Of a stretch of 41,278 nucleotides of DNA, positions 1,795 through 36,002 are shown in pieces. The notes under the pieces were generated by a model. It searched no databases, had not been told where the DNA came from, and was given only the letters and a program-made list of their open reading frames with translations. Source of the DNA: Halorubrum vacuolatum (GTDB taxonomy: Archaea; Halobacteriota; Halobacteria; Halobacteriales; Haloferacaceae); the NCBI RefSeq assembly GCF_900188065.1, contig NZ_FZNQ01000021.1:1-41278 (forward strand), written 5' to 3'. A program made the translations under genes and the position numbers. The number at the start of each line of letters is the position of its first letter. Within the stretch, counting starts at the first letter, position 1.

Positions 1795-3360
1795 CGCTCA
1801 TCACCGCCTCGATGTCCTCGTCGTCACGAACACGGAGCGGAACGTACGCGGTGTCGTCCTCGTGAACCTTGTCGACGAACTCCCGCTTGCGGTGGTGACG
1901 GACATCGCACGCCCGACTGTAGTCACAGTATCGGCAGTTGGCACCACGAGCGGACAGGAGCGTCGTATGGAACCGTCCGTTGGCGATCGCCTCGTCGATT
2001 TGGCCCAACCACTCCGGAACGACATCGTTCAGGAAGCGACGGAGTTCAACCTCGGAATCGAACTTCGACTCGACACCGCGTGGAACCTTGAGATCGTTGG
2101 GCGGTCGTACCTGATAGTACGTCGCCGAGAGCGAGCCCTCCTCGAACAGATCACCGTCGACGACCTCGGCGGTAGCAAGCAGATAGATGGGGAGCTGGAA
2201 CTTCGTGCCGCCAGTCGTCTTCGTAATATACGGTGCCCGTCCAGTCTTGTAGTCGTAGAGCGTAAGCGTCGGTTGTTCGCCACCCTGGCTCACGTCAACG
2301 CGGTCGATGTATCCCCGAATCGAGACAGTCGAGCCGTCCGGTCGCTCCACCGTGAACGGACCACCATCCGAGTCGGGAAGCCCCTCACCGAACGGGGCCT
2401 CGAACAAGTGTGGTCGGTCAGCGCCGTCCCGCGAGAGTTTGTTGTCGAGGAAGGTAGCGAACAACCCCTGTTCCGGTGCGTCGTGAGGTTTGCTCCCGGC
2501 CTCGTACGGAGCACTCTCGCCGTCACACAGGCCCGCGAACAGCTCCGCCTTCCACCGCTCGTAGAACAGGCCGTCGTACTCGAAGTCAGCATCCCGGAGT
2601 TCCTCAACGGCGATCTCGCGAAGGTGCGTCGCCAGGTCGTCTCGGTCGAACTCGGTGAGATCGGCACCGTCTTCGGTTTCGTCCTGTAGATCCGCGAAGA
2701 ACCGTTCAAGCACGTCGTGGACGTACGATCCAGTTTCGAGGGGCGTAGGGACGACCTCGACGTCGTCAGGATCCTCGATTCCGAGCACTTCGTCAGCGTA
2801 GAACTTGAACCCACACTCGACGTATCGCTCGATGCGACTCGCACTGTAGGGTTCCCGCTCTGACGGCGGATAGACTTGCGCGACGGTCTCGGGATCCAAC
2901 ACGCCGTCGTGGTCGGAGAGGCCAGCCGTTCCCCTGTTGGCCGCACAGCGGATTCCCCGATCCGTGCGATTGGTCTGCTCGGGGGAGAGATCACCTCGGT
3001 CGCCGGCGCGGCTGACTGCCGCACGCCGGTCGGCCGTTGCAGCGACGTGCCGCTGGAGGTCTTCGCGAGAGCCCACGCGGTCGTCGAGCCCGTCTTGGGG
3101 TTCGATGCCAGTCACGCGCTGGAGTTCGTCGAGGACCGGCGACCGGACGACGGCGGACTCGTCGTCGCCCGTCTCTGGTGTGATGATCGTGAGTTCGTCG
3201 ACGTTCGCGAGTAGCGTCGCGAAGAGATAGCGGCCACGGAGTCGCTCGTCGCCGGTGTCGAACCGTGGGTGGGCGTCGGTCATCTCCTCGAAGAAGGCTG
3301 GGCGTTCCGGCGTTACCGGGAAGTGCTCGCTCGTCAGCCCCACGAGGACCACGACGAGGC
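1787..3360 (-). pseudogene. AddB/RecB-like PD-(D/E)XK nuclease, 5'-truncated
   Basis: C-terminal part of an AddB-type protein. From the C-terminus backwards it shows CRYCDYSRAC (cysteines of an iron-sulfur cluster), the nuclease core LYDYKTG with upstream GYIDRVD, and the domain entry YSASRIERYVECGFKFY, whose Cys is the usual first cluster ligand. Upstream lies helicase-like sequence (LVGLTSEHFPVTPERP). The reading frame stays open to about 3454, but beyond roughly 3350 it is the antisense of an IS66 transposase, so the authentic N-terminus is gone. With the truncated helicase downstream, both subunits of this locus are broken. The junction is known only to about 20 bp. Confidence 0.85.
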
Positions 3361-3817
3361 TGAGCCGATCTACCGGTATCTCAAGCAGATGTTCGTCGGT
3401 CTCCAGTCCTGGCTGGAGACCGACCCGACGGATCGAGAACGAGCCCAGATGCATCGTGTCGCCCAGAGAGGGCTCGAAACGCTCGTTGAACGGTCAGACA
3501 CCGACGGACCAGTGGCAACACTGCTCGGCAAGATCGACGGCGGGATCGACCACGGGCTCACCTTCGTCGGTGAGCCAGCGGTCTCACCAACGAACAACGC
3601 CGCCGAGAACGCACTTCGTGAACCGGTCGTTCTCCGGAAAATCATCGGTACGCTCCGCAATGATCGCGGAATGTTCGTTCACGAAACGTTGCTGTCCCTG
3701 CTGGCGACGTGGCGCCAGCAGGGACGCAACTCCTACGATGAACTCAAGCGAGTCGTCGAAAACAACGAGATGACTTCACCCGCTCAGGCTGTGCCTGCCG
3801 TCGAGCCTTCGGGGTAA
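3341..3817 (+). pseudogene. IS66-family transposase, C-terminal remnant
   Basis: About 155 residues of the IS66 TnpC-type transposase C-terminus, with the characteristic SPTNNAAENALRE and RKIIGTLRNDRG segments and the tail ATWRQQGRNSYDELKR. The zinc-binding and central DDE parts are missing; the 5' side runs directly into the antisense nuclease gene. A perfect 13-bp inverted repeat (3694-3706 and 3713-3725, 6-nt loop) lies inside the coding sequence, one of many such hairpins in transposase genes here. It ends at TAA 3815-3817; no terminal inverted repeat was recognised downstream (3818-3943 shows nothing else). Confidence 0.8.
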
Positions 3818-6638: not shown

Positions 6639-7091
6639 CCGGCTTGAACTGGTAGTGACGGCCTGCAGTGTCTGTAGATTCCAACTCGACAAACAGGCCG
6701 TCAGAAGATGTGACGAACGCCAGCAGTATCAATGCTGACGAAATCGTCGCCGACGAAGTGTACTCGCTGCTCGACGCGGTCGCGCTCTCGCGGCCTCTCT
6801 CGACGCGGGCGCGGAACGTATGATCAAGACAAACCGCCCGTGTTCGTCCTCGTGGATCGTGGCACCGAGCAACGGTACGTTGTGCCGGCGAAATCCGCAG
6901 ACGAATCGACGATCCGGCTCCTGCTGGCTGACCGCCAGCAGGAGCCTCTCACGGTCTATACGGACGGATTTTGCGCGTACGATCCGCTTACAGAAGACAA
7001 AACATTCGACCGCGAATACGTCGTTCACGGAGACGGTGAGTACGCCGACGAGACGGTCCACGTGAACACCTGCGAGAGCCACGCGTCGCTG

Positions 7092-8236
7092 TAATGACCG
7101 AGAAAACCTTTGTTGGTCACGCTCAACCACAACGTAATGAGTGGAAATCGTCGAAAAGAAATCACGTATCATCTTCCAGAAGAGAGAATCGATGAACTCC
7201 TCCGCGAAGCTGAAGACGATCGCCGAAAAGAGCGGCTCGGCTTTCTGAAAAACCTTTACTACGGTGATACGATCGCAGAAGCTGCCGACCGTGAAGGCCG
7301 GTCGGCAGCGACCGGGAGACGCTGGGTAGAAGCCTGGAACGAGGGTGGACTTGAGGGATTAATGCCGAGTTTCGGGGGCGGCGGCCCCCGAAACTCGACG
7401 AAGACGAACAACAAGAGCTGGTGGAGATGCTTCGGGACGGCCAACCGTGGAAATCACAGGAGATTCAGCATCTCCTCAAAGAGGAGTTCGATGTCGAATA
7501 TCATCCGGATTACCTCGGGAAATTTCTCCGTGAACTGGGCTTGTCCTACGCAAAACCCCGTCCGAAGCGGCCACATCGACCGGAGAATCCTGAGGAAATT
7601 CTTGACGAGCGCGTCGGCGACGCGCTCGACGAGGATGGCGGCCCTCACAACAGAGAGAAAGGAGATGACAAAGAAGGATGGACTGTTGACGACGATGTCT
7701 GTACGGATGGCGGAACTGTTCTGGGGTTTTTCGATGCCTCACAACCGCAACCGTACGACAATTCCCGCCGTGTCTGGTACGTAGACGATCCACACGTGGA
7801 ACGGCCGTTAGTCAAGACAGAGGACTCGGCGGTTGGATTCTACGCACTGAATGGGGAGAGTACAGTTCGCTGGAAAAAAACCGAGGAGAAAGAGCGGATT
7901 TGTGAGGTGTTAGAGGTGGTCCGCGAGCAGAATCCCGGCAAGCGGATTCTGCTCGTCTTGGACAAGCACGGCTCACACGTCTGTGAATACACGCGCAAGC
8001 GTGCGCATCAACTTGGCATCAGTCTCATCTTCCTTCCGTCAGGATCGCCGCATCTCAACCCAATCGAACAGGTCTGGAAATACCTCAAGTGGACGATGGC
8101 ACCGATCATCGTCGAGGACGAAGACGAGTTCCACGAACTCGTCAAGGATGTTTTCGAGCAAGTGACACAGCGAATCAGTTTTGCCAAAGACTGGTGTCAG
8201 AAGTTCCTCGATCTACAGAAGTTTCCTTGATCATTA
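7092..8236 (+). mobile_element. IS630-family element, copy 1 (full length)
   Basis: The ends are TA-flanked imperfect inverted repeats: the left starts TAATGACCGAGAAAACC and the right, read inward, TAATGATCAAGGAAAC. The unit sits inside the IS1595 transposase between its HASL and ARRW codons. Removing 7092-8236 leaves no duplicated TA, so either the target TA is counted as part of the element or one copy was lost. It carries one transposase gene in two frames. A second copy begins at 17185. Confidence 0.8.
7137..8230 (+). pseudogene. IS630-family transposase with a frame change near 7385
   Basis: It starts at ATG 7137 (MSGNRRKEITYHLPEERIDE), with a helix-turn-helix N-terminus (EAADREGRSAATGRRWVEAW), and continues in a second frame from about 7390 (LDEDEQQELVEMLRDGQPW). 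The catalytic domain is in the second frame: FFDASQPQP, LLVLDKHGSHV and HLNPIEQVWKYLK, the D/D/E set of IS630/Tc1-type enzymes. Compared with the homologue at 17960-19007, which codes GGGRPPKL in one frame here, one base is missing inside the loop of a 13-bp hairpin (7366-7378 and 7385-7397). Copy 2 has the same change, so it is either programmed frameshifting (a -1 shift would be needed) or an inherited defect. Further hairpins lie at 7281-7309, 7606-7628 and 7924-7955. Confidence 0.8.
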
Positions 8237-8419
8237 GCGCGACGGTGGCTCTCGCCGCATCGAGGCATCTCAAAAGATCGCCTCACACAGTATCTCCGAG
8301 CGTTCCAACTCAGACGAGAACTCTACCGCAAACCCGGACGAAAAGCGCTCAAACACGCCGTCAAAGCCACTCTCTGAAATCAACAATATGCTACACAAGA
8401 GCGGTCGAACATTTTTAAC

Positions 8420-9359
8420 GGCTGTGTTGAATCGGCATAAGGCGTAGAGATTCACTGTTTGACGAAGCGTTTGATGTTGTAGACGACACACATCAAGGCG
8501 ATTTCGCGGAACTCACGGAACCAAGAACGAGCTCGCACGGCGAAGCCGAGCGAGCGCTTCACAGCCGAGTTCACGGTCTCGGTCATCGAGCGTTGATTGT
8601 AGCGCTGTGTGTCGATTCTAGCATTGTGCGCATGGTCATATGGAGCGAAGATGCGATGTTTGATCAGCGGGCGAATCCCGAGGTTACGAAGGGATTCGCG
8701 GAGTGCTTGTTTGTCGTAGCCTTTGTCCGCAGCGAGAGACCGCAGATCGCCCGCATTTCGGCGGGCGATCTGCTCAGCGAGATCTGCGTCGCTTACTTCT
8801 CGGGTGGTTGAGCAGTGCACGTCAAGGACAGCTTGGGACGCTGTATCGACTAATTTCGTCACTTTGAGCTTTTGAACACGGTAGCTGATCCGCTGGCAGT
8901 AGTGGCGGCTGGCTGGTGAGCGGTCGTAGAACGTAGCGTCGATGGCAGCATGTTCGGAGAGTTCGTGCAGCTGCGCCGACTGGCGCAGCAGCACTCGACA
9001 GACACTCATGCTGATCCGGTCGAATGCCTTACACAACGTGGATGGTGCGGGGAGATCGGCCGCTTTGAGGCCGATCTCTCCAGTTATTTGTGGCATCTCT
9101 TTGAGCAGGTCGATAGTCATGCGATAGGATGTATCGAGGTAAATTCGCAGACAATGAAGGGAAACGAGGGCATAGTCGGCGAATCCGCCGCCACCTTCCG
9201 GGGCGGCGGATTCGTCTCCATCACCAGTGACTCTTTGAGCAACCGGCACAACTTCCCCAATGAAGCGGGAGATTTGGGTCATGAACAACTGAAGTCTCCC
9301 GCTTCAATACCTTTGATTTAGCGACCTGTTCTGCTGCCGTCTAGCGATTCAACGCAGCC
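8420..9359 (-). mobile_element. Complete IS5-family insertion sequence (940 bp)
   Basis: The 15-bp terminal inverted repeats GGCTGTGTTGAATCG (8420-8434) and GGCTGCGTTGAATCG (complement of 9345-9359) match at 14 positions, and a perfect 8-bp target duplication surrounds the unit. One intact transposase gene lies inside on the minus strand. Similar ends (GCTGTGTTGAAT) occur at 35399 and, more distantly, in the element at 36003-37153. Confidence 0.92.
8452..9288 (-). CDS. IS5-family transposase
   Basis: 278 residues, apparently intact. The catalytic residues fit the IS5 DDE pattern: Asp in AIDATFYDRS (about 118), Asp in LAADKGYDKQ (about 188) and Glu in MTETVNSAVKRSLG (about 242), with R and K at the usual Y2/K1 positions. 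The protein would act in cis or trans on the flanking 15-bp ends. The coding sequence holds several perfect hairpins: 8742-8754 with 8761-8773 (13 bp), 9180-9192 with 9202-9214 (13 bp), 9052-9061 with 9069-9078 (10 bp) and 8970-8977 with 8982-8989 (8 bp). Three of these are matched in position by hairpins in the truncated homologue at 35473. Confidence 0.9.
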   Translation of the reverse strand: MFMTQISRFIGEVVPVAQRVTGDGDESAAPEGGGGFADYALVSLHCLRIYLDTSYRMTIDLLKEMPQITGEIGLKAADLPAPSTLCKAFDRISMSVCRVLLRQSAQLHELSEHAAIDATFYDRSPASRHYCQRISYRVQKLKVTKLVDTASQAVLDVHCSTTREVSDADLAEQIARRNAGDLRSLAADKGYDKQALRESLRNLGIRPLIKHRIFAPYDHAHNARIDTQRYNQRSMTETVNSAVKRSLGFAVRARSWFREFREIALMCVVYNIKRFVKQ

Positions 9360-9367
9360 TTTTTAAC
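9360..9367 (+). promoter_or_regulatory. TATA-like box of the 9390 SDR, recreated by the IS5 target duplication
   Basis: TTTTTAAC centred about 26 nt before GTG 9390, suiting a leaderless transcript. It is the right copy of the target duplication of the IS5 element. Confidence 0.6.
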
Positions 9368-9389
9368 CCATGGAATTCAGTGTGGTGTC

Positions 9390-10151
9390 GTGAAAGTAGA
9401 TATAGAAGACCGAGTGGCCCTGGTCACAGGTGCAGGTCGCGGGAACGGACGAGCAATTGCTCGTTCTCTCGCGAGAAACGGTGCCAAGGTCGTAGTCAAC
9501 GACCTGGATGAAGAGCCCGCCGAGGAGACAGTCGATACAATACGGAACGAAGGGGGAACAGCAGTAGCGGCACCGGCGGACATCTCCGACGAAAACGCCG
9601 TCAAAGCCATCGTCGAAGAGGCCGAGAACAAGTTCGGCACAATTGACATATTAGTGAACAATGCAGGCGCCGGTGCTGCACAACCATTTATTGACGAACG
9701 GGAGAACGCCCTCTGGCGATTCAATATCGAAACAGATCTCTGGGGATCTATCTACTGCATCAAACACGTGATGGACGGGATGATAGAGCAGAACTACGGA
9801 AAGATAATAAATACTACATCTATTCATACGAAGAACGGTGTCGCCGGCACCCCCCAATACGACGTTGGCAAGTTCAGCGTGCTTGGCCTGACGAAAAGCC
9901 TCGCACTGGAACTCGGTCGTGCTGGAATTCGAGTCAACGCAGTAGCACCCGGCCACACGAAAACTCGGATGACCGAGGATTTTCCACCGGACCTCGAGGA
10001 GGAAGTTACCGGGAGGAATCCGCTGGGTCGATTCGGAGAATCAGAAGAGATCGCCGATGCAGTCACGTTCCTCGCTTCACCCGCAAGCGATTACGTCAAC
10101 GGTCACGAACTCCGAGTCGATGGAGGACAACAACCCGTCGATATGCTGTAG
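9390..10151 (+). CDS. Short-chain dehydrogenase/reductase (SDR)
   Basis: 253 residues starting at GTG 9390. It has the Rossmann motif TGAGRGNG (residues 12-19), Asp-rich strand 2 end (VVNDLDEE), NNAGAG (about 89), catalytic Ser in NTTSIH (about 141), the YDVGK Tyr-Lys pair (about 153) and the C-terminal NGHELRVDGG. It is a soluble NAD(P)-dependent oxidoreductase of unknown substrate, most like 3-oxoacyl reductase/glucose dehydrogenase-type SDRs. Its promoter abuts the IS5 element. It may act with the other SDR and the VOC protein before the insertion sequences arrived between them. Confidence 0.85.
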   Translation: MKVDIEDRVALVTGAGRGNGRAIARSLARNGAKVVVNDLDEEPAEETVDTIRNEGGTAVAAPADISDENAVKAIVEEAENKFGTIDILVNNAGAGAAQPFIDERENALWRFNIETDLWGSIYCIKHVMDGMIEQNYGKIINTTSIHTKNGVAGTPQYDVGKFSVLGLTKSLALELGRAGIRVNAVAPGHTKTRMTEDFPPDLEEEVTGRNPLGRFGESEEIADAVTFLASPASDYVNGHELRVDGGQQPVDML

Positions 10152-10311
10152 GAGATCGATATCGTCGTTCGACATCTCTGACGGATCGAAATCAATTTGC
10201 AACTCCTGAAGGGGATTACGGCACGAGGTCGTTTTAACTCGCTCCGGTGAACTGGACCCAGCACCTGGAACGGCATTCTCGGTATGCGCAGAACCCTCGC
10301 TGCGGGAGCAC

Positions 10312-11589
10312 CTAGCTACCGCCAGTGAGATAGTTCACGATACACTCATGCTGGGGCCCAATGGTCTCGACGAGATGATTCTCGTCCACCGGACCAAAGG
10401 TCCTGTTCGATTCGATAACGAACGCGAGTGTTGCAATCGTATACGTCCCGTCCTCCTCGACGGGGTCATCGTCGATGTGAACAGTAGACCCCTCGCTGGT
10501 CTCATCGATCGTCAGACCGGAATAGGCGATGTTCTCGCTCTCGTCTCCGGAGGACATCGAGTTATCCACTACCTCGAGGAGTTCTCTACCGGACACCTCT
10601 ACCACGACGGCAGGTTGGGGGAACGGAATTGCTCTCAAGATCTCCCCACTGGTCATACGACTGTGTAACTGGGGTTCGTCGCGCACGGCATCCCTGTTAA
10701 TCAGTCCGATATCTGCTCCAGATTCGTGGCGGAGTGCCTCCGCAACGACGGAGTCGAACATCCGATTTTCGATATCGATAGGTGCATCTGTGCAGTCGAT
10801 AGACGCGTCCATCTTCCGCTCGTCCTCGTATGAACGGAGTGACGCGACGGCTTGCTCGTCGACAGGAGCGGCCTGGACTGGATGGTGGGTGACAGAAAAA
10901 CGGGACCCATCTATCGAAATTTCGACAATCTCTTTCGCTGACCCAATGGTTCGTACAATGAGTGTGCCGTCGACGCGGCGTTCGAGCCGTTCGTTGACGT
11001 GACCGGCCAACAGAACGTCGATGTCCGCCTCGGAAACGATTTCGTCTGTTCGGTCGGTGTGAGCAACACCGACGACCACGTCGACGCCATCATTGCGGAG
11101 TTGTTTGCTGATACGGCAGGCGGTCGCAACGGGACCGGAAGTGGTGAGACCGTCTGCATTTGGCGCAATGTCCCCTATCGAGCCGTGAGTAACACCGAAG
11201 ATACCGATTTTGGTGTCCCCGACATGATAGGTGACAGATGATTCGACACCGATGTCTGCCGCAAAACGATGTTCCGTCCCTGCCTCGTGAAGGTTGGCCG
11301 TGACCCACGTTTGCGGTGAGGCCCGGATCACCTCTTTCAACGGTTCGAGACCAAAGTCGAACTCGTGGTTGCCAAATACTTCGATATCGGTTCCCACTCT
11401 CTCGTAGAAGTCTACGGCATGTCTCCCCGCTGTCTGTGTAGAGAGCAGACTGGGTCCGATCGAGTCACCCCCACCGATTACAAGAGTTTCCTCATCGGAG
11501 AGTACCTGCGCGAGACCACAGAACCGACCGATCCGATCCGGATCGTCGTACCCATCTTCGATATCCGAGTAGAACAACAGAGAGACCAC
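10312..11589 (-). CDS. Bifunctional metallophosphatase/5'-nucleotidase family protein
   Basis: 425 residues. The N-terminal calcineurin-like domain shows GGGDSIG (about 39), GNHEFDFG (about 72), GVAHTDRT (about 178) and LLAGHVNE (about 197), the metal-binding series of the 5'-nucleotidase/UshA family. The first motif is SDIEDGYDD rather than the usual D-x-H, a form I associate with haloarchaeal members. The C-terminal domain contains GLINRDAVRDE and IPFPQPAVVVEVSG, the nucleotide-specificity domain. There is no signal peptide, so it should act in the cytoplasm on nucleoside phosphates or related phosphoesters. It starts at GTG 11589. It runs in the same direction as the oxidoreductase and nucleoside phosphorylase genes beyond it. 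Confidence 0.82.
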   Translation of the reverse strand: MVSLLFYSDIEDGYDDPDRIGRFCGLAQVLSDEETLVIGGGDSIGPSLLSTQTAGRHAVDFYERVGTDIEVFGNHEFDFGLEPLKEVIRASPQTWVTANLHEAGTEHRFAADIGVESSVTYHVGDTKIGIFGVTHGSIGDIAPNADGLTTSGPVATACRISKQLRNDGVDVVVGVAHTDRTDEIVSEADIDVLLAGHVNERLERRVDGTLIVRTIGSAKEIVEISIDGSRFSVTHHPVQAAPVDEQAVASLRSYEDERKMDASIDCTDAPIDIENRMFDSVVAEALRHESGADIGLINRDAVRDEPQLHSRMTSGEILRAIPFPQPAVVVEVSGRELLEVVDNSMSSGDESENIAYSGLTIDETSEGSTVHIDDDPVEEDGTYTIATLAFVIESNRTFGPVDENHLVETIGPQHECIVNYLTGGS

Positions 11590-11839
11590 GGATGTTCGCA
11601 GTTGTGGCTCCGCTAGGTCGTTAATCTCACGGTTGAGATAATTGACGCCAGGCCGAAAGAAATGCTGATCTCATCTTGTAGAGCGACGGAAGCACCTCGA
11701 GGGGGCAACGTTCCGTAGACGGGCATACAGCAGTAGAGACACCACTTCTTTGATATTTGGGAAGAGCGCTCGACTATGACGCCTACGTCGTTACGGAGTT
11801 TTGGCGTCGTTCCTCGAACGCGACTGCTGCTGGGACGGC

Positions 11840-12907
11840 CTAGATTTCGACCCTCCGACCCTGCTCGATCGAATCGTAGATAGCTTCGAGGGTGTACATG
11901 TCGACCAGCCCATGCCTTCCGTCGGGGCCGATACTCCGACCTGAAAGTACGTGGTCAGCAAAATACTCGAACTCCTCGACCATCTCGTTGATCCATTCGA
12001 AGCTCGTCGACGTTTCTGTACCACCTCGCTGTATCGTCAGTTCAGTCTCCAGATGGAAGGCTGGGGACAGTTCGACCGTTCCTTTGGTACCGACGACCGT
12101 CAAATGGCTCTCCGAATAGGCGTTCTGGCTAGAAGTAAACGCCGACTGGATACCGTCCTCGAATTCGACCAAAAAAGAACAGCGTTCGTCGGGTACATCC
12201 TGAAACACGTCCGTAGGCGAAACTGCGGAGGCCTGCACGAACCGGGGGTCCCGTTCCAGTAAAAATCGAGTCGTATTCACCGGATAAATACCGATGTCAG
12301 AGACCGAGACTCCATACCCTACCAGGTCCGGGTTCAACCGCCACTGATCAGCATCCGGAAAGTCCTCGAGCAATTGAACTGAGTTGTTCCCGTAAACGTG
12401 AACCGGATCACCGATCAGCCCATCCCGAATGAGTTCCCGAGCTCGACGTACCGCCGGATCAACCTGCATCCGATAGGCGACCATCAGAGGAACGTCATGG
12501 CGGTCACAGACGCCAACAAGTTCCTCGGCCCGGGATGTCGTCGCTTCCAGAGGTTTTTCACAGAGTACGGCTTTCTGATTCCGGGCTGCTGTCTGTACAT
12601 ATTCGAGATGGGTTCCATTTGGTGTTACGACATATACAGAATCGTATACGCTGTTCGCAACGCCGTCCGAATACTCCTCGTAGTTCAGGACGTGATCGAT
12701 TCCATATTCCCTAGCGACCTCCTGGCCCGCGTGCTCGTTGCTCGTGACGACTGTAGTGAGTTCACAGTGGGCCGCTTCGGAGATGGCTGGAAGCGCATGA
12801 TTTAGGGCCCAGTTTCCCAATCCAACCACTGCTACGTCCAATGTACCTTCCGGATCCGATTGCCAGTCGCGTTTCGTAAAGTCCTCAAAATAGGCAGCGA
12901 TTTCCAT
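11840..12907 (-). CDS. Gfo/Idh/MocA-family oxidoreductase, similar to haloarchaeal D-xylose dehydrogenase XacA
   Basis: About 355 residues. The N-terminal Rossmann domain has VAVVGLGNWA (about 27-36); the family signature CEKPLEA follows at about 117, with VAYRMQVDPAVRRAREL and VSDIGIYPVNTTRFLLERDP in the substrate domain. The overall pattern, including DWQSDPEG near the start and GLVDMYTLEAIYDS at the end, resembles XacA, which oxidises D-xylose with NADP. Family membership is clear; substrate identity is inference, and another pentose or nucleotide sugar is possible. ATG 12907 is preferred over 12916 because the TATA-like box is centred 26 nt upstream of it. Confidence 0.82.
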   Translation of the reverse strand: MEIAAYFEDFTKRDWQSDPEGTLDVAVVGLGNWALNHALPAISEAAHCELTTVVTSNEHAGQEVAREYGIDHVLNYEEYSDGVANSVYDSVYVVTPNGTHLEYVQTAARNQKAVLCEKPLEATTSRAEELVGVCDRHDVPLMVAYRMQVDPAVRRARELIRDGLIGDPVHVYGNNSVQLLEDFPDADQWRLNPDLVGYGVSVSDIGIYPVNTTRFLLERDPRFVQASAVSPTDVFQDVPDERCSFLVEFEDGIQSAFTSSQNAYSESHLTVVGTKGTVELSPAFHLETELTIQRGGTETSTSFEWINEMVEEFEYFADHVLSGRSIGPDGRHGLVDMYTLEAIYDSIEQGRRVEI

Positions 12908-12929
12908 ACACGGCATGAGTGTCTAGGCG

Positions 12930-12936
12930 TAAAAAA
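12930..12936 (-). promoter_or_regulatory. TATA-like box of the XacA-like gene
   Basis: TTTTTTA on the minus strand, centred 26 nt before ATG 12907. Confidence 0.5.
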
Positions 12937-13009
12937 TTCTTGCACCCCCGACGTTGCTCTGGAACTTACTGATCTCGGCCGGCCCGTCGTCTTCGCGAGT
13001 CCCGACCGG

Positions 13010-13876
13010 TCACAGGTTCCTGTATTCCCACTCCTCGTGTTCATCGCTTTTAGCTATCTCTGCATGTCCACGACAATTTGAACAGCGACTCGTCGACATC
13101 GCTTCGATGGTGTCGATGATGATTTGTGTACAGTCCCTGGCTCGTTCATCTAGTGTCTTATCGACTGCCGTAACACTCGTCGTCGGTCTATCGTATTTGG
13201 TTTGATCTTCCCGTGGATCCGTGATTAGAGCGAAGTTGGCGTAACACATCTCCAGTTCTCGTGCCAGCGTAACTTCCGGATATGTCGACATCCCCATGAT
13301 ATCTCCACCGTGCGCTGCGAACATCTCCGCTTCAGCGACCGTTGCGAACCTGGGCCCCTCTACTATCACGAGAACGACATCATCGTGGCACTCGAAACCG
13401 TTTTTCTCCGCCCGTTCAGTTAACGTGTTTGATATGTCTGGGCAGAAGGGGACGTGAGAACTAAAATGCCGAGACGGGGCCTCGTCAAAGAAGGTGTCAT
13501 TTCGGTTGGTCGTATCGTCGATGTAGTCCGCTGGGACTGCTATGTCACCGAACGAGAGCGACTCGTTGATTGCTCCGTTTGCGGTGGCACTGATTATTCG
13601 ATTCACCCCCAGTCGGTGGAACGCAAACAGGTTCGCTCGATAATTAATCGAATGTGCAGGTATGTACCGCCCCTCCCCATGTCGTGATATAAATGCAACA
13701 TTTTTGGACCCCAGTTCTCCCACAACGACGGGATGAGAGGGTTCGCCGTAGGGTGTTTCGACCACAATCTGTTCCTCTATATCGATACTTCTACTGATGC
13801 CGTAGCCACCCGTTATCCCGATCTCGATCTCGGCATCCGGAGACTCGCTCATCGGTAGCTGACGTGTCTCTGTCAT
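13010..13876 (-). CDS. MTA/purine nucleoside phosphorylase family protein
   Basis: About 288 residues. The phosphate-binding Gly-rich start GITGGYGIS (about 15), FISRHGEGRYIPAHSINYRANLFA (phosphate and base side), NGAINESLSFGDIAVPADYIDDTTNR and the signature VEGPRFATVAEAEMF with GMSTYPEVTLARELEM define the MTAP/PNP group. It would split a nucleoside with phosphate into a base and a pentose-1-phosphate. The C-terminus has an extra Cys/His-containing tail (SRCSNCRGHAE) not typical of the family. ATG 13876 is chosen because a TATA box lies 28 nt upstream. With the adjacent 5'-nucleotidase-type enzyme this could release pentose phosphate from nucleotides; that link is inference. Confidence 0.82.
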   Translation of the reverse strand: MTETRQLPMSESPDAEIEIGITGGYGISRSIDIEEQIVVETPYGEPSHPVVVGELGSKNVAFISRHGEGRYIPAHSINYRANLFAFHRLGVNRIISATANGAINESLSFGDIAVPADYIDDTTNRNDTFFDEAPSRHFSSHVPFCPDISNTLTERAEKNGFECHDDVVLVIVEGPRFATVAEAEMFAAHGGDIMGMSTYPEVTLARELEMCYANFALITDPREDQTKYDRPTTSVTAVDKTLDERARDCTQIIIDTIEAMSTSRCSNCRGHAEIAKSDEHEEWEYRNL

Positions 13877-13900
13877 TCCTTCCTGTTGTCGTATGCTGAG

Positions 13901-13908
13901 TATATAAA
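13901..13908 (-). promoter_or_regulatory. TATA box of the nucleoside phosphorylase gene
   Basis: TTTATATA on the minus strand, about 28 nt before ATG 13876. Confidence 0.6.
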
Positions 13909-14112
13909 TTCGGTGGCAACTCAACGGGTCGAGGTCAGGTAGCGGATACAGCGCTCACCGACCGAGTGTCAGTGCCCGAAATCGAGCGCCTCAGTGGCGG
14001 AACCCCTGAGAACGACCCAGCGGTGCAGGGCGCTTGCAGACGCCCTGCTGGGCGAGTTGGCAGCACAGCCGCGGTATGTCACTGAAATAATGTTGGAAAT
14101 TACATTTCATAT

Positions 14113-14946
14113 GGGGGTGGGATAGAATCAATCTCATAGTGCCAAGTTCGGACTGCTCGGATCACCTCCTCGTTCATAATTCGTAATCGCCACGACGAGT
14201 CGAAGGCACAGCGATAAAAACACGTGTGCCTTCGCCATCTCGCGGTCTCGGGCAGGAACGTGCCCGAGACCGCCCTCCATGCAGACGTTGATTGCGTTTT
14301 CTACTTGCGACCTCAGTGCATAGGTCTCGTCCAGTTGTGTCTGCCACACACCGATATTCTCGAAGTGTTCTTCGATTCGTGATTCGACCCTGTACTCGAT
14401 ATCGAGTGGATCGTTCGTGTTGCGTGGGTTGTATGGAGCCACCGGCACGACGTTCTGCGAGAGCAGAAGGTCGTGTCAGTTCAGGATATCGAACGCTGAA
14501 TCACCAATCATCCAGATCGGCTTCTTGACGGCGAGCGCGTCACGCGTGACGCGCATCGCCGTCTCTTCATCGACTTGCTTTTGGTCTGTGAACGCCGCTG
14601 CGACCGGGATGTTGTGAGCAGTTGTGACCAACGTACAGCCGTAGCCGAAGTACTTCTCGTCAGCTGTTGGATCGTGATTCCACGTCCCATCAGAGTCATC
14701 TCGAAAGGGCGTCCGTATATCGGTTGAATCGATCCGGAATGTTAGGGAGAGCAGGCCGCGCTATCGGGGGCGAAAACGTCGAACTCTTCGAAAAACGACG
14801 GATCAAGATACTCGGCCAATGCTGTGATCTCCGTCTCCAAGACATTGAAGACGTCCTCAACCGTATCTATCGATGACAGGGCTTGTGTGGACATGGCATC
14901 TCACTAGCCCTGTCGCTTATCCTGAGAAGCTTTCTATCCCACCCCC
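14113..14946 (-). mobile_element. Decayed insertion sequence with intact ends (834 bp)
   Basis: Perfect 15-bp inverted repeats, GGGGGTGGGATAGAA at 14113-14127 and its complement at 14932-14946, with a perfect 8-bp target duplication. The clean ends contrast with the ruined transposase gene inside, which suggests the element was mobilised in trans after or during decay. Confidence 0.88.
14134..14894 (-). pseudogene. DDE transposase of a haloarchaeal ISH element (IS4-like), internally deleted
   Basis: The start reads MSTQALSSIDTVEDVFNVLE and runs to FFEEFDVFAPDS. A deletion and frame change follow near 14765, then LTFRIDSTDIRTPFRDD (first catalytic Asp), YFGYGCTLVTTAHNIPVAAAF and WMIGDSAFDILN (second Asp). 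A TGA at 14476-14478 replaces what is probably Trp (ILN-W-HDLL). The rest continues to AITNYERGGDPSSPNLAL. Two hairpins are present in coding sequence: 14242-14254 with 14261-14273 (13 bp) and a perfect 20-nt palindrome at 14535-14554. Family assignment is tentative; non-function is clear. Confidence 0.75.
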
Positions 14947-14954
14947 TTTCATAT

Positions 14955-15337
14955 AGTTAACTGGCAGTGTCACGTCGCGGCCCCAATCTGGTAGACGCCC
15001 TCGAAGTCACGCCGACCGCGATGATGACAACGGTGCAAGTGGCCAGAGACCAGAACGCAGTTTACATCAACGGCCACGACTCCGTGTGGTACGGCGATTG
15101 TGACGCCACCACCAGTGAGAGGCGCTACCCCCTGCGCGTCCTAGTCACAGCGAAATGGGCAATCTTGACGGTCGTCTGGGGATACGACGCCAGACATCGT
15201 CGTTATCAAAACGTACCAACCATGCACATTCTATATTACCGAAACGTGTCTTGAACCAGTCGACGGCTACCACGATGCACACCAACCATATCGGTGCTGG
15301 GTCGCTTGGTAATGTTCGACAACCCACCCCTCGGAAC
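14955..15337. other. Intergenic region, no gene recognised
   Basis: About 380 bp between the decayed IS and the GT2 promoter. Open frames here have no recognisable domain and no plausible promoter. I see no RNA gene. Confidence 0.5.
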
Positions 15338-15345
15338 ATTTAAAA
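15338..15345 (+). promoter_or_regulatory. TATA box of the GT2 gene
   Basis: ATTTAAAA centred about 27 nt before ATG 15369; it supports that start over an upstream in-frame ATG at 15294. Confidence 0.6.
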
Positions 15346-15368
15346 GCTATACGTATAACAAATCGTCT

Positions 15369-16298
15369 ATGTCTCGTGCCTTCGATGGCAGATTTCCGCT
15401 CTCCGTGGTCATTGCGACGTACGAGAGACCAGCAATGACAGTTGATCTGATTCAATCAATACGAACGTCTGTCAGTAATTTTCGTACTCGGGACGGTGTT
15501 TCCCTCGAATTCGAGTGTCTAGTGTGCTGCAGCAAGAACGACGAGACGACGATCGAGACCCTGGAGACTGTAGACTGGCCGGAGCTGAAGGTCATCACAA
15601 CTGATAATCAAGCTGCAAGCCACAACCGCGACGTAGGATTCCGCCGTGCTTCTGGAGCCTATATCGCGGTAGTCGATTCCGACTGTATCGTCGCTGATGA
15701 CTGGATCGGTGCGATCTACGATGCACTCCGTACCAACAAGTATCCCGATGTCCTGCAAGGAGCGTACTTCTACGACTATCAAGAAGAGCGGAGCCGCTAC
15801 ACCGTCATCGAAGCCAACGAGGATTTCTCCCGGTTCAAGGACAGGCAGGCGGATAGCCGAAATCTCATATTCCACCGAGACGCCTATTCTGGAATCGGGG
15901 GGTACGACACCGACCATCTGTACGCAGATGCAGGAGAGGACCTGGTCCTGCGTAACCGTGTAGAAAATGCGGGATACAGATTCTGCTTCGCAGAACAGGT
16001 CAAAGTCTATCACCGGTACCCGACCGGTCTCGTCGGGAACCTCAAGAGATACAATCGATACGGCCGGGGAGCAGTCCACATAAAATGGTACTATCCAGAG
16101 ATGTACGGGAGGTATTCCCCCTGGTCTTTCACGTCTTCGACACTAAAGCAGATGCGGTCTTTCATCATAGACCAGACAGTCTCTACGCGCAAACTCCTGT
16201 TCCGAATCCTGAAAACCTGTTCCTTCCTGATCGGATTCCTCCAAGGGCTCGTAGTGTATAGATTGGAAGCGGCCCGAACTTCGAACGGGCTATCGTAA
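15369..16298 (+). CDS. GT2-family (GT-A fold) glycosyltransferase
   Basis: 309 residues. The GT-A core begins SVVIATYERPA (about 12), continues through ITTDNQAASHNRDVGFRRASG and has the DxD-type metal/nucleotide motif VVDSDCIVADDW (about 97). An acceptor-side motif DAGEDLVLRNRVENAG follows at about 180. A hydrophobic stretch near the C-terminus (ILKTCSFLIGFLQGLVVY) may contact the membrane. It would transfer a sugar from a nucleotide donor to a lipid-linked or polysaccharide acceptor on the cytoplasmic side. It stands alone between insertion sequences but fits the glycan genes at 19.4-25.4 kb and 3.9 kb. Confidence 0.85.
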   Translation: MSRAFDGRFPLSVVIATYERPAMTVDLIQSIRTSVSNFRTRDGVSLEFECLVCCSKNDETTIETLETVDWPELKVITTDNQAASHNRDVGFRRASGAYIAVVDSDCIVADDWIGAIYDALRTNKYPDVLQGAYFYDYQEERSRYTVIEANEDFSRFKDRQADSRNLIFHRDAYSGIGGYDTDHLYADAGEDLVLRNRVENAGYRFCFAEQVKVYHRYPTGLVGNLKRYNRYGRGAVHIKWYYPEMYGRYSPWSFTSSTLKQMRSFIIDQTVSTRKLLFRILKTCSFLIGFLQGLVVYRLEAARTSNGLS

Positions 16299-16692
16299 CG
16301 GCCGTGGTCGATCTACGACGTTCATCTGGTCCCCTGTACGAGTCAGGACGTCGAACCCCAGGGCGTTCAATCTGGCTTAGTACTCCCGCATCTCGAGAAC
16401 GGATAGTATCGACGACGCCCGCCGACCCGGACCATTATATTCGAATAATTATACGATAAAGTATACGCAATGATATATCCCCCGGCCCTTCCAACTCAAG
16501 TGTGATTTTGGGCGAGGCAGGGAGATCACTGTCACACTTTCGTAATGAAACTGGTCTTCAGCAGCTAACGTGTCTTCAACAATTCAAAAGCAATCTGGTT
16601 TGTCTTGTATTCCACTTCGACTGCATAGATATATTCTGCCACAGCCAGCGCTGCCGCTCCGCAGGAGCGGCCAGCGCGGCCTTTCTCTTCCC
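16299..16692. other. Intergenic region with AT-rich patch and a hairpin
   Basis: No gene recognised. 16435-16490 is AT-rich. A hairpin around 16648-16675 (GCCGCTCC / GGAGCGGC) follows the stop of the minus-strand transposase remnant and could be its terminator. Confidence 0.4.
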
Positions 16693-17184
16693 CTAACCAG
16701 CCTCCAGATCACGCCACCACAGGTACCGACGCTTCGGTTCCGTGAACAGCGATTTCATTTGCTCGCTCTCCAACTTCGGAAACAACTCACGACCCACCGA
16801 AAGCGACCAGTTCCGCGACACCAGCCCGTTCTTCAGCGTCCGAACGCGCATCTGCGTGTGCAGAAACGACCGCGCGCGCTCCTTTGATCGAAACCGACGC
16901 TCGATTTGCGTCGGTTTCGTGTGCCCGTAGTACCGCTCGAGGTTGTTCGTGGTACTCGGCACCCACTCGTCCCGGAGATGCAACGCGAACCGATCAAAGT
17001 TCTGCTGTACCTCCTCGACGTATCCACGCACCTCTGTCGGCAGCTGCTCGACCTTGTCGAGCACTGCCTCAAACCGCCGAACTGCTCCCTCATAGGACGG
17101 AGCCGCAAACACCTGCTTGAACTCACTCCAGACGAGCGCTCCCCGGAGCTTCTCCGAGTCAGAGTACCGAACGCTCCGGAACAC

Positions 17185-17705
17185 TAATGACCGAGAAAAC
17201 CTTTGTCGGTCATGCTCAACCACAACGTAATGAGTGGGGATCGTCGAAAAGAAGTCACGTATCATCTTCCAGAAGAGAGAATCGATGAACTCCTCCGCGA
17301 AGCTGAAGACGATCGCCGAAAAGAGCGGCTCAGCTTTCTGAAAAACCTTTACTACGGTGATACGATCGCAGAAGCTGCCGACCGTGAAGGCCGGTCGGCA
17401 GCGACCGGGAGACGCTGGGTAGAAGCCTGGAACGAGGGTGGACTTGAGGGATTAATGCCGAGTTTCGGGGGCGGCGGCCCCCGAAACTCGACGAAGACGA
17501 ACAACAAGAGCTGGTGGAGATGCTTCGGGACGGCCAACCGTGGAAATCACAGGAGATTCAGCATCTCCTCAAAGAGGAGTTCGATGTCGAATATCATCCG
17601 GACTATCTCGGGAAGTTCCTTCGTGAGTTGGGCTTGTCCTACGCAAAACCCCGTCCGAAGCGTCCACATCGACCGGAGAATCCAGAGGAAATTCTCGACG
17701 AGCGC
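17185..17705 (+). mobile_element. IS630-family element, copy 2 (3'-truncated)
   Basis: Nearly identical to copy 1 from the left end (TAATGACCGAGAAAACC at 17185) through codons LSYAKPRPKRPHRPENPEEILDE, where it stops abruptly at about 17705 and joins the host transposase remnant. The transposase start is ATG 17230. It has the same one-base difference in the GGGG hairpin (17459-17490) as copy 1. The DDE domain and right end are absent, so it is dead. Confidence 0.85.
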
Positions 17706-17951
17706 ATCCGACGATCTCCCCTGTGGCGTCGGTGATCCAGTCATGGATTCGTTGATCCGATGGACGCGTCCCGTAGTGAATGGTGATGATGTCTTGGATG
17801 GCTTCGAGGGACGCGTCGGTGAACACGTTCACGACGCGTCCGAGGCGACGGACTGGTCGTGGATAGCGGTGACCATCGTCGATTTCCGGGAGACTCGGTG
17901 AGAACGAGCCGGGGCAGTTCGGACACTGATAGCGCTGCACCCGCACGGAGC

Positions 17952-19036
17952 TAGAGTGATCAGCGTAACTTCTGAATATCCGGGAGGAACGTCTCGATCC
18001 AAGCAGCTGCGAAGCTCAGTCGCTGACTCAACCGGAGGAATCTCTGCGTGAGAAACTCGCGGAAGTGAGTTTTGTCCTCGAAGATCTCTGGTGAGGTCTC
18101 TCGCTTGAGATCTTTCCACAGCGGTTCAATTGCGTTCAGTGTCGGTGAATACGGTGGGATGAAGACGAACTCGATGCCGAGTTCGTCGGCCCGTTGCTGC
18201 GTGAGCTTCGCGTGGTGTGACCCGTAGTTGTCTGCCACGAGCAGAATCCGCGGGGCCGGATTCTGCTCGCGGATCTCTTCGAGCGCCTCAACGATCGTCT
18301 CTTTGACCAACCGTTCTGTGAACGTGATCACGCTCTGGCCAGTCAACGCGTAGAAGCCAATTGACCGCCACGGCACTGCTACTAACGGCTTCTCTATCTG
18401 GACGGTGCGGTCGTACGACCACATCCGTTGGGAGTTCTCGAACGGCTGCGGCCACGATTCATCGAAAAAATCCGAGGATCACCGGGTCATCCTCGTCACT
18501 TTCGTCGTCATCTTCGCCGAGCGCCTGAGAGAGGCGCTCGGCGAGGATCTCCTCAGCATCATCTGGACTGCGTGGATCCATCGGCCGTGGCTTGGCATAA
18601 TGCATCCCGCTAGCGCGTAGCTTCCGGCTCAAATGAGCCGGATCGTAGGTAACACCGTAGCGGTCGTGGATGAGTGCGTGGATTGCTCGTGGTGTCCACG
18701 GCTGACCCTCCTCAAGGATCTCACACAGGTCGGAGAACTGTTCGTCCGAGAGTTTCGGGGGGCGACCGCCCCCGAAACTCGGTCGTAACCCATCGACACC
18801 GCCATCATTCCAAGCGTGCGCCCACCGACTACTGTTGGCTTGAGAAACACCGACGCGACTGGCGGCTTCCTGCAACACATCACCTGCGTAGAGATTCTTC
18901 ACAAAACAGAGACGGCGGACGAGCGGGGCCTCGTCCGCCTTCTGTGCCTCATCAAGTTCCTCTTCAGAGAGATGTTCCACCACCTCGACCCGTCGACGTC
19001 CACTCATGGACACTATAGGTTCTGTGAGTATCCATA
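17952..19036 (-). mobile_element. IS630-family element, copy 3 (diverged, complete ends)
   Basis: Bounded by TA at 17952-17953 and 19035-19036. Removing the element and one TA restores the codons of the host transposase, which identifies the TA target duplication typical of IS630/Tc1 elements. The terminal repeats are imperfect (TAGAGTGATCAGCGTAAC and TATGGATACTCACAGAAC). It is a different IS630 lineage from copies 1 and 2. Confidence 0.82.
17960..19007 (-). pseudogene. IS630-family transposase with a +1-base frameshift at an A6/T6 run
   Basis: It starts at ATG 19007 (MSGRRRVEVVEHLSEEELDE), with an HTH region AASRVGVSQANSSRWAHAW, the SFGGGRPPKL linker in one frame, and LRASGMHYAKPRPMDP. The first frame ends after DPVILGFF because of six T (complement of A6 at 18465-18470); one T fewer would give GFFDES with the first catalytic Asp. 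The second frame continues MWSYDRTVQIEK, LLVADNYGSHHA and LNAIEPLWKDLK (the remaining Asp and Glu) to IQKLR. A -1 shift would not restore the frame, so this is a mutation or needs polymerase slippage. Hairpins: 18238-18269, 18514-18544, 18750-18780, 18914-18939. Confidence 0.8.
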
Positions 19037-24317: not shown

Positions 24318-25382
24318 ATGCGAGTTGCACTCATTACAGCCGTGGACCCTTTCGAGGAAAGCGGCGGTGCAGAACGGACATTGACTAGGTGGCTTTCACA
24401 TCTTGCCGACAACGGCTATGAAGTCGATGTCCTCACGTACGGTGAAGAGAGTGACGGAACGAGGGTAGGCTGTTCAGTGAAACGCTTGGACGACAAGTGT
24501 CCTATCACCTCGATCGACCGGTTCTGCAGAACCGAGGACCTCGACGTCGTGTTGACACAATCGGGGTGGGGTGACATCGCTCTTTGGGCAGCAAATCGCC
24601 ACGGAATCCACTCGCTCCTCTGTGTGATGAGTGACTTCGATCTGAATCTCAAATCGGGTATCGCCTCGGATGCAGGCCCCACTCGCGCGATTGCTGTTTC
24701 AGACGATTATCGGGAGCGAGCAACGGACGTGTACGACTGTTCGGTTCAAACGGTGTATCAACCCATCGACTTCGAATACTACACGGTGCCGGACCTGGCA
24801 CGGGAAACATACACCCTGATAAATCCGATCAACTACAAAGGAGGGGAACTATTCAAACGATTGGCACAACAGTCGGACGATGAACAGTTTCTCGCGAAGA
24901 TGGGTTGGTTCCACCAGCGGAACGAGGACCTGACGTTCGACAGGGATATCTACGATATCTACAGTCAGACCGTAAGCGAATACGTTCCTTCCCCCGAGGA
25001 ACCGGACCTGAGCCCCGTCCCCAATATCGAATTCGTCATAGATGGCGACATTCGGGACATCTATAGACGGACGAAAGTTTTGCTGGTCCCATCACAGTGG
25101 GATGAGTCCTTCGGGCGAGTCGTAATTGAGGCAATGCACAACGGCATACCGGTCGTCGCCAGCAATGTTGGGGGTATCCCGGAAGCATGCGGAGATGCCG
25201 CAATCCTAGTAGACGATTACGAGTCAGTCGACGCCTGGGAGGAGCATCTGAACACGCTGGAAGATCGAGACACCTATGAGGAATACGTCCGGAAGAGCAG
25301 GGCCCGAGCAGACCGCTATAGGGAACGACAGCCAGGCGAGATTCGCGCCTTCGAATCGGAAGTGAACAAGCTAATCGAGTGA
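24318..25382 (+). CDS. GT4-family (GT-B fold) glycosyltransferase
   Basis: 354 residues from ATG 24318 (MRVALITAVDPFEESGGAER), a typical GT4 start with the Gly-Gly acceptor loop; GTG 24300 is an alternative. The C-terminal domain shows LLVPSQWDESFGRVVIEAMHNGIPVVASNVGG with the E-x7-E motif (ESFGRVVIE), which binds the donor nucleotide and sugar. The middle strand TYTLINPINYKGGELF is the start of the donor domain. It is a cytoplasmic or membrane-associated sugar transferase. Its neighbours (FkbM, transaldolase-like, UAXS-like genes) indicate a role in a methylated, possibly pentose-containing surface glycan. Confidence 0.88.
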   Translation: MRVALITAVDPFEESGGAERTLTRWLSHLADNGYEVDVLTYGEESDGTRVGCSVKRLDDKCPITSIDRFCRTEDLDVVLTQSGWGDIALWAANRHGIHSLLCVMSDFDLNLKSGIASDAGPTRAIAVSDDYRERATDVYDCSVQTVYQPIDFEYYTVPDLARETYTLINPINYKGGELFKRLAQQSDDEQFLAKMGWFHQRNEDLTFDRDIYDIYSQTVSEYVPSPEEPDLSPVPNIEFVIDGDIRDIYRRTKVLLVPSQWDESFGRVVIEAMHNGIPVVASNVGGIPEACGDAAILVDDYESVDAWEEHLNTLEDRDTYEEYVRKSRARADRYRERQPGEIRAFESEVNKLIE

Positions 25383-26154: not shown

Positions 26155-26574
26155 ATGATTCCACTCAAGACGTTCGTCTCGGAGCGTCGGGCCGCGAATC
26201 TGCTGGCACAGATTCGCTGGCGTGACGGCGTCTATTGCCCACGCTGCCGTACCGAATCGGTGATTCGGTACGGCAGCTATCGGGTGTTTCAACGGTATCT
26301 GTGTAAGGATTGCGGACGCACGTTCAACGACAAGACCGTTACGGTCTTCGAACACTCGTCGGTCCCGCTCAGGAAGTGGTATCTCGCCGTCTACACCTAT
26401 ATGATCGCGACCGAACCATCGGTTCGAAGTGCGATGCTTGGCGCCGTCCACGCGCGCTGGGACGCCAGTATCCGGACGTTCACCGATGCCACGGACTGCT
26501 GTCGGCTCTGCGCACAGTTCTGTACCCACATTCAGAACGAGGAACTCTACGGATCGCTCGACCGTCTGGACTGA
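26155..26574 (+). pseudogene. IS1595-family transposase, N-terminal remnant
   Basis: It begins MIPLKTFVSERRAANLLAQ and has the zinc ribbon of this family: CPRC (about 27) and CKDCGRTF (about 51), then SVPLRKWYLAVYTYM. After about residue 95 the frame no longer matches; the adjacent frame reads LGRQYPDVHRCHGLLSAL, so there is a frameshift near 26440, and the catalytic domain is absent. A 16-bp perfect hairpin (26243-26258 and 26262-26277, 3-nt loop) lies within the ribbon codons, and a 9-bp one at 26194-26217. Confidence 0.75.
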
Positions 26575-31289: not shown

Positions 31290-31583
31290 GCTTCAACACC
31301 ACAGAGGTCCATCTGAAACATAATCACGCGGGCATACCAGCGCATCCGTTCGTTGCTTCAACACCACAGGGGTCCGTCTGAAACTCACGACGGCCGGGCG
31401 GCCATCCTTGGTGACTGGCTTGCTTCAACACCACGAGGGTCCGTCTGAAACCATCGGCGAACCGTTCGGGATCGAAAAGTGGATCGCGCTTCAACACCAC
31501 GAGGGTCCGTCTGAAACTCGGACGGCGGTGCGTGCATCGCCATAACTTCAGCGGCTTCAACACCACGAGGGTCCGTCTGAAAC
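31290..31583 (-). CRISPR. CRISPR array, 5 repeats and 4 spacers, type I-B
   Basis: 30-bp repeats at 31290-31319, 31355-31384, 31422-31451, 31488-31517 and 31554-31583; spacers of 35, 37, 36 and 36 nt. On the minus strand the repeat begins GTTTCAGACGGACCC and ends TGTTGAAGC, the haloarchaeal I-B form, so transcription runs toward cas6. The three right-hand repeats are identical, the next differs slightly and the one beside cas6 most. That is the normal decay pattern at the leader-distal end and places the leader right of 31583. I saw no match of the spacers to the rest of this window. Confidence 0.97.
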
Positions 31584-35398: not shown

Positions 35399-35855
35399 GC
35401 TGTGTTGAATAGCGATCTTATCTGCCATTTTCGGCGGTTTAGAAGGATGAAGCCGAGGAAATCGAGCTTGGTATGGAGATCAATATCCTTGACTTCATCG
35501 AGCAGTGTCGTGACCTAGCTAAACAAGCGTTGGGAAAGCACGCGGGCGAGCCCGCCAGCGGCGGGTTCGCCCGCTGGGTTCACGTCGTTTTGCACTGTTT
35601 TCGGGTCGAAGACGGCCACAGCTACCGTGAAACGTCTAATCGGCTGAAGTACATGGCTGAGGTCCGCGATGCTCTTGACTTAGATCGGGACGATATCCCC
35701 GATCACACGACGATCTACAAGTCGTTTGATCGGCTGAAAATGTGGGTGTGGCGGGCGCTGCTGCGCGTTTCTGCGCAGCAGCACCCGGAGTCTGGCCACG
35801 CTGCGCTCGACAGCACGTTCTTCGACCGCCGACGTGCGTCCTCGTACCATTCGTG
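35399..35855 (+). mobile_element. IS5-family element, 3'-truncated
   Basis: The left end GCTGTGTTGAAT at 35399-35410 matches the ends of the complete IS5 at 8420-9359. The transposase gene starts at 35473. The element is cut at about 35855 and has no right end; the 150 bp after it show no gene. Confidence 0.7.
35473..35855 (+). pseudogene. IS5-family transposase, N-terminal half
   Basis: MEINILDFIEQCRDLAKQAL, VVLHCFRVEDGHSYRETSNR, IPDHTTIYKSFDRLKMWVWR and ALDSTFFDRRRASSYH, the last with the first catalytic Asp. Native sequence ends there; the frame runs on to 35967 without similarity. It is homologous to the 8452-9288 transposase and carries hairpins at three matching places: 35542-35574, 35683-35704 and 35757-35782. 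Confidence 0.8.
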
Positions 35856-36002
35856 TTCGCTTAACACTCATAGTAATAGGCTACGGCTTTTGAGCTCGAC
35901 TGAGTTATGCGTATACGAAGGAAATGAGCGAGGTGCAAACCTCGCAGAACCGTCGGAGCAGGCTTGATCGAACGCCGATGCCCATCATTACTTAGCGGAG
36001 TC

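Follow-up and report, generated by a model that had tools for sequence, protein, structure and literature searches.

The production of transposase is known to be restrained by structure in messenger RNA (mRNA) in the insertion sequences (IS) IS10, IS50 and IS200, where folding goes together with poor expression of the transposase. Hfq/Sm-like proteins participate there, as does antisense RNA, and each of these elements has its structure at the 5' end or over the ribosome-binding site. Structured RNA also resides inside transposon genes as the sot RNAs or omega RNAs of haloarchaeal IS200/IS605 elements (RF02656), which sit in TnpB genes. Short perfect inverted repeats are familiar as repetitive extragenic palindromic (REP) elements and other interspersed palindromes, REPs being mobile copies of a single sequence scattered across intergenic DNA. 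Lastly, perfect stems with multi-base compensatory changes are produced by template switching (Monttinen and Loytynoja, PMC8794818). Here we analyse the transposase genes of a complete contig from the haloarchaeon Halorubrum vacuolatum (NZ_FZNQ01000021.1; its 41,278 nucleotides are hereafter the window), beginning with two diverged elements of the IS630 family whose coding sequences are studded with perfect hairpins. Unlike the structures of IS10, IS50 and IS200, these hairpins are several per gene, spread along the whole coding sequence, found in many unrelated families and intolerant of wobble pairs; unlike sot and omega RNAs they are lacking from TnpB genes; unlike REPs they are native to their codon position and specific to each family; and whereas template switching is a general mutation process, they are confined to particular mobile-element genes in particular hosts.

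Across haloarchaea, many unrelated IS families of the cut-and-paste type have transposase coding sequences with several perfect hairpins (arms of 9-16 base pairs (bp), loops of 3-8 nucleotides (nt)). These hairpins are kept at homologous codons, where synonymous sites and some amino acids shift to preserve Watson-Crick pairing. We tentatively suggest that unrelated element families of the Halobacteriota independently gained strictly Watson-Crick hairpin arrays that amount to an unrecognised, host-dependent structural code, acting at the DNA level or in both transcripts and dictating codons and even amino acids. The hairpins show that transposase genes in one archaeal phylum must satisfy a further constraint, strong and strand-symmetric, which takes precedence over codon choice and ties amino acids to one another. 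Although work on ISH elements goes back to the 1980s, the searchable literature yielded no description of such hairpins.

Hairpins kept at homologous codons

The first IS630 transposase gene (element 1; 7137-8230, + strand) was delimited by Pfam matches to HTH_23, HTH_33 and DDE_3, alignment to element 2 and breaks in its frame; the second (element 2; 17960-19007, - strand) by Pfam DDE_3 and helix-turn-helix (HTH) matches, its two frames joining at ~18472. Both belong to IS630 by their DDE_3 domains (7e-16 and 8e-20) together with HTH_23, HTH_32 and HTH_33, and in alignment their transposases are 48% identical. The first-pass annotation of the window had listed six hairpins, three per element, at shared protein positions, and all six are indeed perfect inverted repeats, each element 1/element 2 pair falling at the same alignment columns despite the divergence of the proteins. 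The hairpin of the SFGGGRPPKL linker (site 85) occupies 7366-7397 in element 1 (arm 14, loop 4) and 18750-18780 in element 2 (arm 12, loop 7); the hairpin before the catalytic domain (site 166) occupies 7606-7628 (arm 10, loop 3) and 18514-18544 (arm 13, loop 5); that of the REQNPxxRILLV segment (site 285) occupies 7924-7955 (arm 12, loop 8) and 18238-18269 (arm 13, loop 6). The element 1 members at sites 85 and 166 are also backed by covariation. Folded as RNA, the six reach -17.7 to -29.1 kcal/mol, with z scores of -3.8 to -6.9 against shuffles. Three sites per element was nevertheless an undercount: element 1 has further hairpins at the column 56 site (7281-7309; arm 11, loop 7), where relatives covary (for example GCTGCTGATCG/CGATCAGCAGC), and at the column 349 site of one clade (8123-8143; arm 9, loop 3), and element 2 at the column 311 site (18164-18187; arm 10, loop 4) and the column 31 site (18914-18939; arm 10, loop 6). 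The window as a whole contains 16 perfect hairpins with arms of at least 11 bp and loops of 3-8 nt; dinucleotide shuffles yield 0.03.

When 391 genomes of the class were searched with a profile, 94 proved to have relatives, and 92 near-complete IS630 genes were mapped codon by codon onto one protein alignment. These genes contain 354 hairpins (arm at least 9, loop 3-10), compared with 11.4 after within-gene shuffling of synonymous codons; for arms of at least 12 the figures are 156 and 0.7. Perfect hairpins stand at site 85 in 70 of the 92, at site 166 in ~75 and at site 285 in 80 (about 76-87%), such that the hairpins are far from absent in most relatives, while other sites are specific to clades (columns 31, 56, 244, 311 and 347). 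The arms do encode conserved motifs, and at most sites first codon positions pair with third positions, both of which would fit complementary codons meeting by chance, as a by-product of a conserved peptide combined with codon usage. The excess over synonymous shuffles, itself a mark of conserved RNA or DNA secondary structure, effectively rules this out, as does the covariation of third positions with third positions and of amino acids in the direction that keeps pairing; we give the by-product explanation next to no credence.

Covariation was assessed in 80 non-redundant relatives (<95% identity) on a tree built without the hairpin columns, the null being the same substitutions redistributed over the tree in 500 simulations, a number that limits the p values of the branch test. 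At the column pair 251:263, both third positions, GC is found in 56 relatives, CG in 16, AT in 2 and TA in 1, and compensation took place on 6 branches where 0.22 were expected (p=0.002). The pairs 245:269 (CG 53, TA 20) and 495:503 (GC 49, CG 20) gave the same p=0.002, 491:507 (GC 41, AT 30) gave p=0.004, and further pairs covaried more weakly; in these four pairs the compensated changes are strong and fall on independent branches. Compensation reaches the protein: Val-Asp occurs 46 times, Leu-Glu 11 times and mixed combinations once (Fisher 5e-11, which ignores relatedness, the tree-based test being more reliable), and the Glu codon is coupled to its partner, with GAG accompanying Leu CTC in 39 genes and GAA accompanying Phe TTC in 30. 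Site 285 is near-invariant because its residues plus pairing leave almost no alternative to GAG.CAG.AAT and ATT.CTG.CTC; here less-used codons are fixed, Asn AAT and Ile ATT each in 75 of 80 relatives (~94%), although their usage elsewhere is 37% and 29%. The earlier proposal that arms which differ yet pair betray selection on pairing is therefore upheld by at least four pairs (p 0.002-0.004) above the phylogenetic null, as is characteristic of conserved RNA or DNA secondary structure. That the hairpins are real, and that their pairing is selected, we regard as near certain.

The property extends well beyond IS630. The annotated plasmids of haloarchaea, among them pNRC100 of Halobacterium salinarum, have 27 transposase genes other than TnpB, of which 23 contain 2-7 hairpins each where ~0.1 per gene is expected; several of the 27 are near copies, so it is safer to count independent families (ISH3/ISH27, ISH8 (IS4), IS5 types, ISH6, IS66, IS630 and IS1595). 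In the same plasmids ISH7A, ISH7B, one IS6 element (ISH15), one unnamed transposase and four TnpB genes are free of hairpins.

Strand symmetry and possible function

The strongest clue to function comes from what the stems refuse to contain. At third positions in 43 intact genes, with expectations from codon usage, T opposite G (a G-U pair in the mRNA) was seen 6 times against 196 expected, a 33-fold depletion, and A opposite C (an A-C mismatch) 5 times against 218, a 44-fold depletion; C opposite A was seen 5 times against 67 (13-fold) and G opposite T 4 times against 22. Similarly, the stem at site 285 stops at an adjoining conserved G-U, where Val GTG is used at 22% against a baseline of 18%, with no extension of the helix. 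As G-U is avoided as strongly as A-C, Watson-Crick pairing is needed on both strands, which fits a structure acting in DNA, or one acting in both the sense and the antisense RNA; copying of one arm to the other also fits. Of the first-pass reading, selection for pairing stands, but IS630 is not the only family with the trait and G-U is not tolerated, so that an explanation through RNA is not straightforward. A classical structured mRNA, with selection on the sense-strand fold only, has precedents in the control of IS10 and IS200 transposase mRNA (PMC5006887; reference cited in PMC10134880) and would account for very stable folds. However, such a fold should tolerate G-U more than A-C, and in the 43 intact genes G-U opposite G was as rare as A-C; we consider it improbable.

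Equal intolerance of G-U and A-C is, on the other hand, just what a mutational trap predicts, in which template switching or heteroduplex repair copies arm to arm and hairpins become perfect without selection (quasi-palindrome correction). Template switching is able both to create and to keep perfect stems with compensatory changes (PMC8794818). Such a process should affect all genes of the host, yet in three plasmid records ordinary genes have 6 hairpins in 61 kb against 1.6 expected, and the four TnpB genes have none. Decayed copies, moreover, lose their pairing: broken and compensated pairs number 49:8 in interrupted copies and 39:17 in live ones (Fisher p=0.04), and the most decayed copies have lost 12-17 of 37 pairs. 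This speaks for selection over a pure mutational trap, although most dead copies are young and the live/dead evidence is modest in size. Arm-to-arm correction may assist in maintaining the hairpins, but as their sole cause it is quite unlikely.

The reading we favour, at a probability of roughly 0.4, is that the hairpins are a self-imposed structural brake on transposase production, a proposal that draws in part on published H. salinarum data. Hairpins would form upon transcription of the transposase gene, and their stems would block or slow ribosomes along the message, possibly with effects on polymerase or on antisense pairing too, keeping transposition low; a factor that melts hairpins, such as SmAP1, would lift the brake. 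Since G-U is not tolerated, the effective structure must form equally on both strands, which would be satisfied if the sense RNA and the abundant antisense RNAs both folded into hairpins, or if the DNA itself had done so beforehand. In H. salinarum, transposase mRNAs are of above-average abundance, yet 29 of 33 mobilome proteins went undetected, and three of the four detected were TnpB (PMC10134880), the class without hairpins in the annotated plasmids. Ribosomes pile up at the 5' end of an ISH3 transcript (PMC10134880), and ISH3/ISH27 of pNRC100 has a hairpin of 13-14 bp at ~nt 52-84, that is, at the 5' end. Deletion of SmAP1 reduces transposition of IS4 and ISH3 elements, and SmAP1 is able to melt hairpins according to the same authors (PMC10134880); antisense RNAs over transposases are frequent (PMC6523106).

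Several points weigh against such a brake. The undetected proteins may, according to the authors who reported them, stem from SmAP1, antisense RNA or low abundance (PMC10134880). A brake that depended on nothing but mRNA folding should tolerate G-U, yet the 33-fold depletion of G-U resembles that of A-C, and no lengthening of the stem beyond the G-U next to site 285 is seen. Nor does a brake explain the near-absence of hairpins in the bacterial transposases tested. The hairpins offer a concrete target for the question of why abundant haloarchaeal transposase mRNA goes without protein. A caution also follows for work on these genes, as hairpins perfect on both strands could yield artefacts in ribosome profiling, in start-site mapping and in the detection of antisense RNA.

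Given the strand symmetry, a function at the DNA level is nearly as likely as the expression brake, though by itself still doubtful. RNA would be uninvolved, the hairpins forming, or extruding as small cruciforms, in single-stranded or supercoiled DNA during replication, recombination, repair or transposition, with a benefit to the element such as retention or repair among many genome copies, or less recombination or transcription. The strictly Watson-Crick, strand-symmetric constraint and the failure to lengthen the helix past G-U both argue for it, as does the distribution of the trait, found across numerous IS families within a single host group but missing from TnpB genes. TnpB elements are considered to possess their own mechanism of retention, and haloarchaea, like methanogens, are polyploid and undergo gene conversion, both of which favour a role in DNA. 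Against it, we know of no DNA process that explains such a need, and polyploid bacteria give a weak or negative answer, with one 14-bp hairpin in a Deinococcus IS630 and none in ISDra5 or in Synechocystis IS5/IS701.

Other transposase families and hosts

Nearly all remaining hairpins of the window lie within transposase genes or fragments of other families. A DDE_Tnp_1 transposase of IS5/IS4-like type, unrelated to IS630 (8452-9288, - strand), has hairpins at 8742-8773 (arm 13, loop 6) and 9052-9078 (arm 10, loop 7), and two with longer loops at 8671-8699 and 9180-9214. Fragments assigned by Pfam comprise another DDE_Tnp_1 transposase (14134-14448, - strand; hairpin 14242-14273) and two of IS1595 type, one at 6729-7094 (+ strand; hairpin 6916-6946, arm 13) and one with a zinc ribbon at 26155-26574 (+ strand; hairpins 26194-26217 and 26243-26277, the latter with an arm of 16); the N-terminal domain DUF772 of an IS5-like transposase (35473-35967, + strand) has a hairpin at 35757-35782. 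Two more hairpins, at 3395-3424 and 3694-3725, fall in an open reading frame (3255-3773) with no Pfam match. The sequence of the latter is that of a hairpin in the IS66 elements ISH10/ISNpe8 and the former is nearly identical to another of theirs; 3395-3725 is therefore probably, on sequence likeness, an IS66 remnant. A perfect 12-bp hairpin at 16889-16919, in an open reading frame (16693-17265) likewise without a Pfam match, possibly marks a further IS remnant. Searched against Rfam, the window had no family above its gathering score except CRISPR-DR24 repeats (RF01337), which form an array of clustered regularly interspaced short palindromic repeats (CRISPR) at 31355-31583 (- strand; 30-nt repeats).

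Across the genome to which the window belongs, DDE_Tnp_1 loci have 47 hairpins against 1.2 expected, and the arms of the IS5-type hairpins covary, for example GCAGGTCTTCCGC, GCAGGTCGTCCGC and GCAGATCGCCCGC, each of them facing an exactly complementary arm. A genome-wide property was rejected, as chromosomal stretches are almost without hairpins; the exceptions are two stretches (L068 and L073) where hairpins cluster, those of L073 including transposase loci. On pNRC100, perfect hairpins of 11-14 bp also occur in or beside hypothetical genes (one protein accession, present twice; L163 20927-20953 and 21053-21083, with mirrored copies at 24781-24937), which are perhaps unannotated IS remnants.

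The trait is strongest in haloarchaea and tracks the host more than the IS family. In a distant branch of IS630, two haloarchaeal copies have 5 and 3 hairpins (arm at least 10), whereas alphaproteobacterial copies of equal or higher GC content have zero. Hairpins are likewise lacking in the bacterial copies examined from Azospirillum, Jiella, Sphingobium, Acetobacter, Rhodovastum, Vibrio, Geobacillus and Planococcus, and in the E. coli and Rhizobium transposases tested; the IS-rich plasmid pNGR234a has a single hairpin, near or within istB. The bacterial copies sampled are few, with a bias towards plasmids, and a Salinibacter plasmid has too few transposases for a reading. The Deinococcus IS630 hairpin (L165 25759-25790; nt 225-256) appears to lie close to the position of the haloarchaeal linker hairpin.

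Some DDE_Tnp_1 (IS4/IS5-type) transposases of the Methanosarcinales have homologous, covarying hairpins, fewer than in haloarchaea, while methanogen relatives of IS630 have almost none at the haloarchaeal sites. Four Methanosarcinales loci (L208, L219, L224 and L227) share homologous hairpins with covarying arms, ACAACCTTGGCA/TGCCAAGGTTGT versus TAACCTTGACA/TGTCAAGGTTA. High salt as the cause is unsupported, given these covarying hairpins in Methanosarcinales, and polyploidy is a weak candidate, with few or none in Deinococcus and Synechocystis.

Broken and shifted reading frames

Two lesions interrupt the gene of element 1: the loop of its first linker hairpin has lost 1 nt, which shifts the frame, and there is one in-frame stop. 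A truncated second copy of this element, 96% identical, lies at 17185-17713 (+ strand) with hairpins at 17374-17402 and 17459-17490, and the same frame-shifting loss of 1 nt occurs in the linker-hairpin loop of both copies (7376-7386 and 17469-17479), which suggests that the copy that underwent duplication was already dead or was mobilised in trans.

Element 2 can be read only by way of a conserved +1 frameshift, whose motif GGATTTTTTCGATGA is found in ~18 relatives. In the element 2 lineage the motif GGN TTY TTT CGA TGA, at ~18475-18455 (- strand) in the window, places a zero-frame stop one codon past UUU CGA, and the DDE domain is encoded in the +1 frame; the motif is also present at our loci L010, L077, L078, L081, L082, L084, L086, L090, L091, L096, L115 and L135. 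Relatives without the shift have one T less, reading GGN TTY TTC GAT. Frameshifting is known for IS630 in general (PMC5009743), and the motif is a candidate for programmed +1 frameshifting in archaeal members of the family. A tie between the hairpins and frameshifting is unsupported, as relatives have the same hairpins whether or not they possess the +1 site. A second IS630 lineage (L126-L129) has another conserved +1 frame change, at a T-rich run in alignment column 275.

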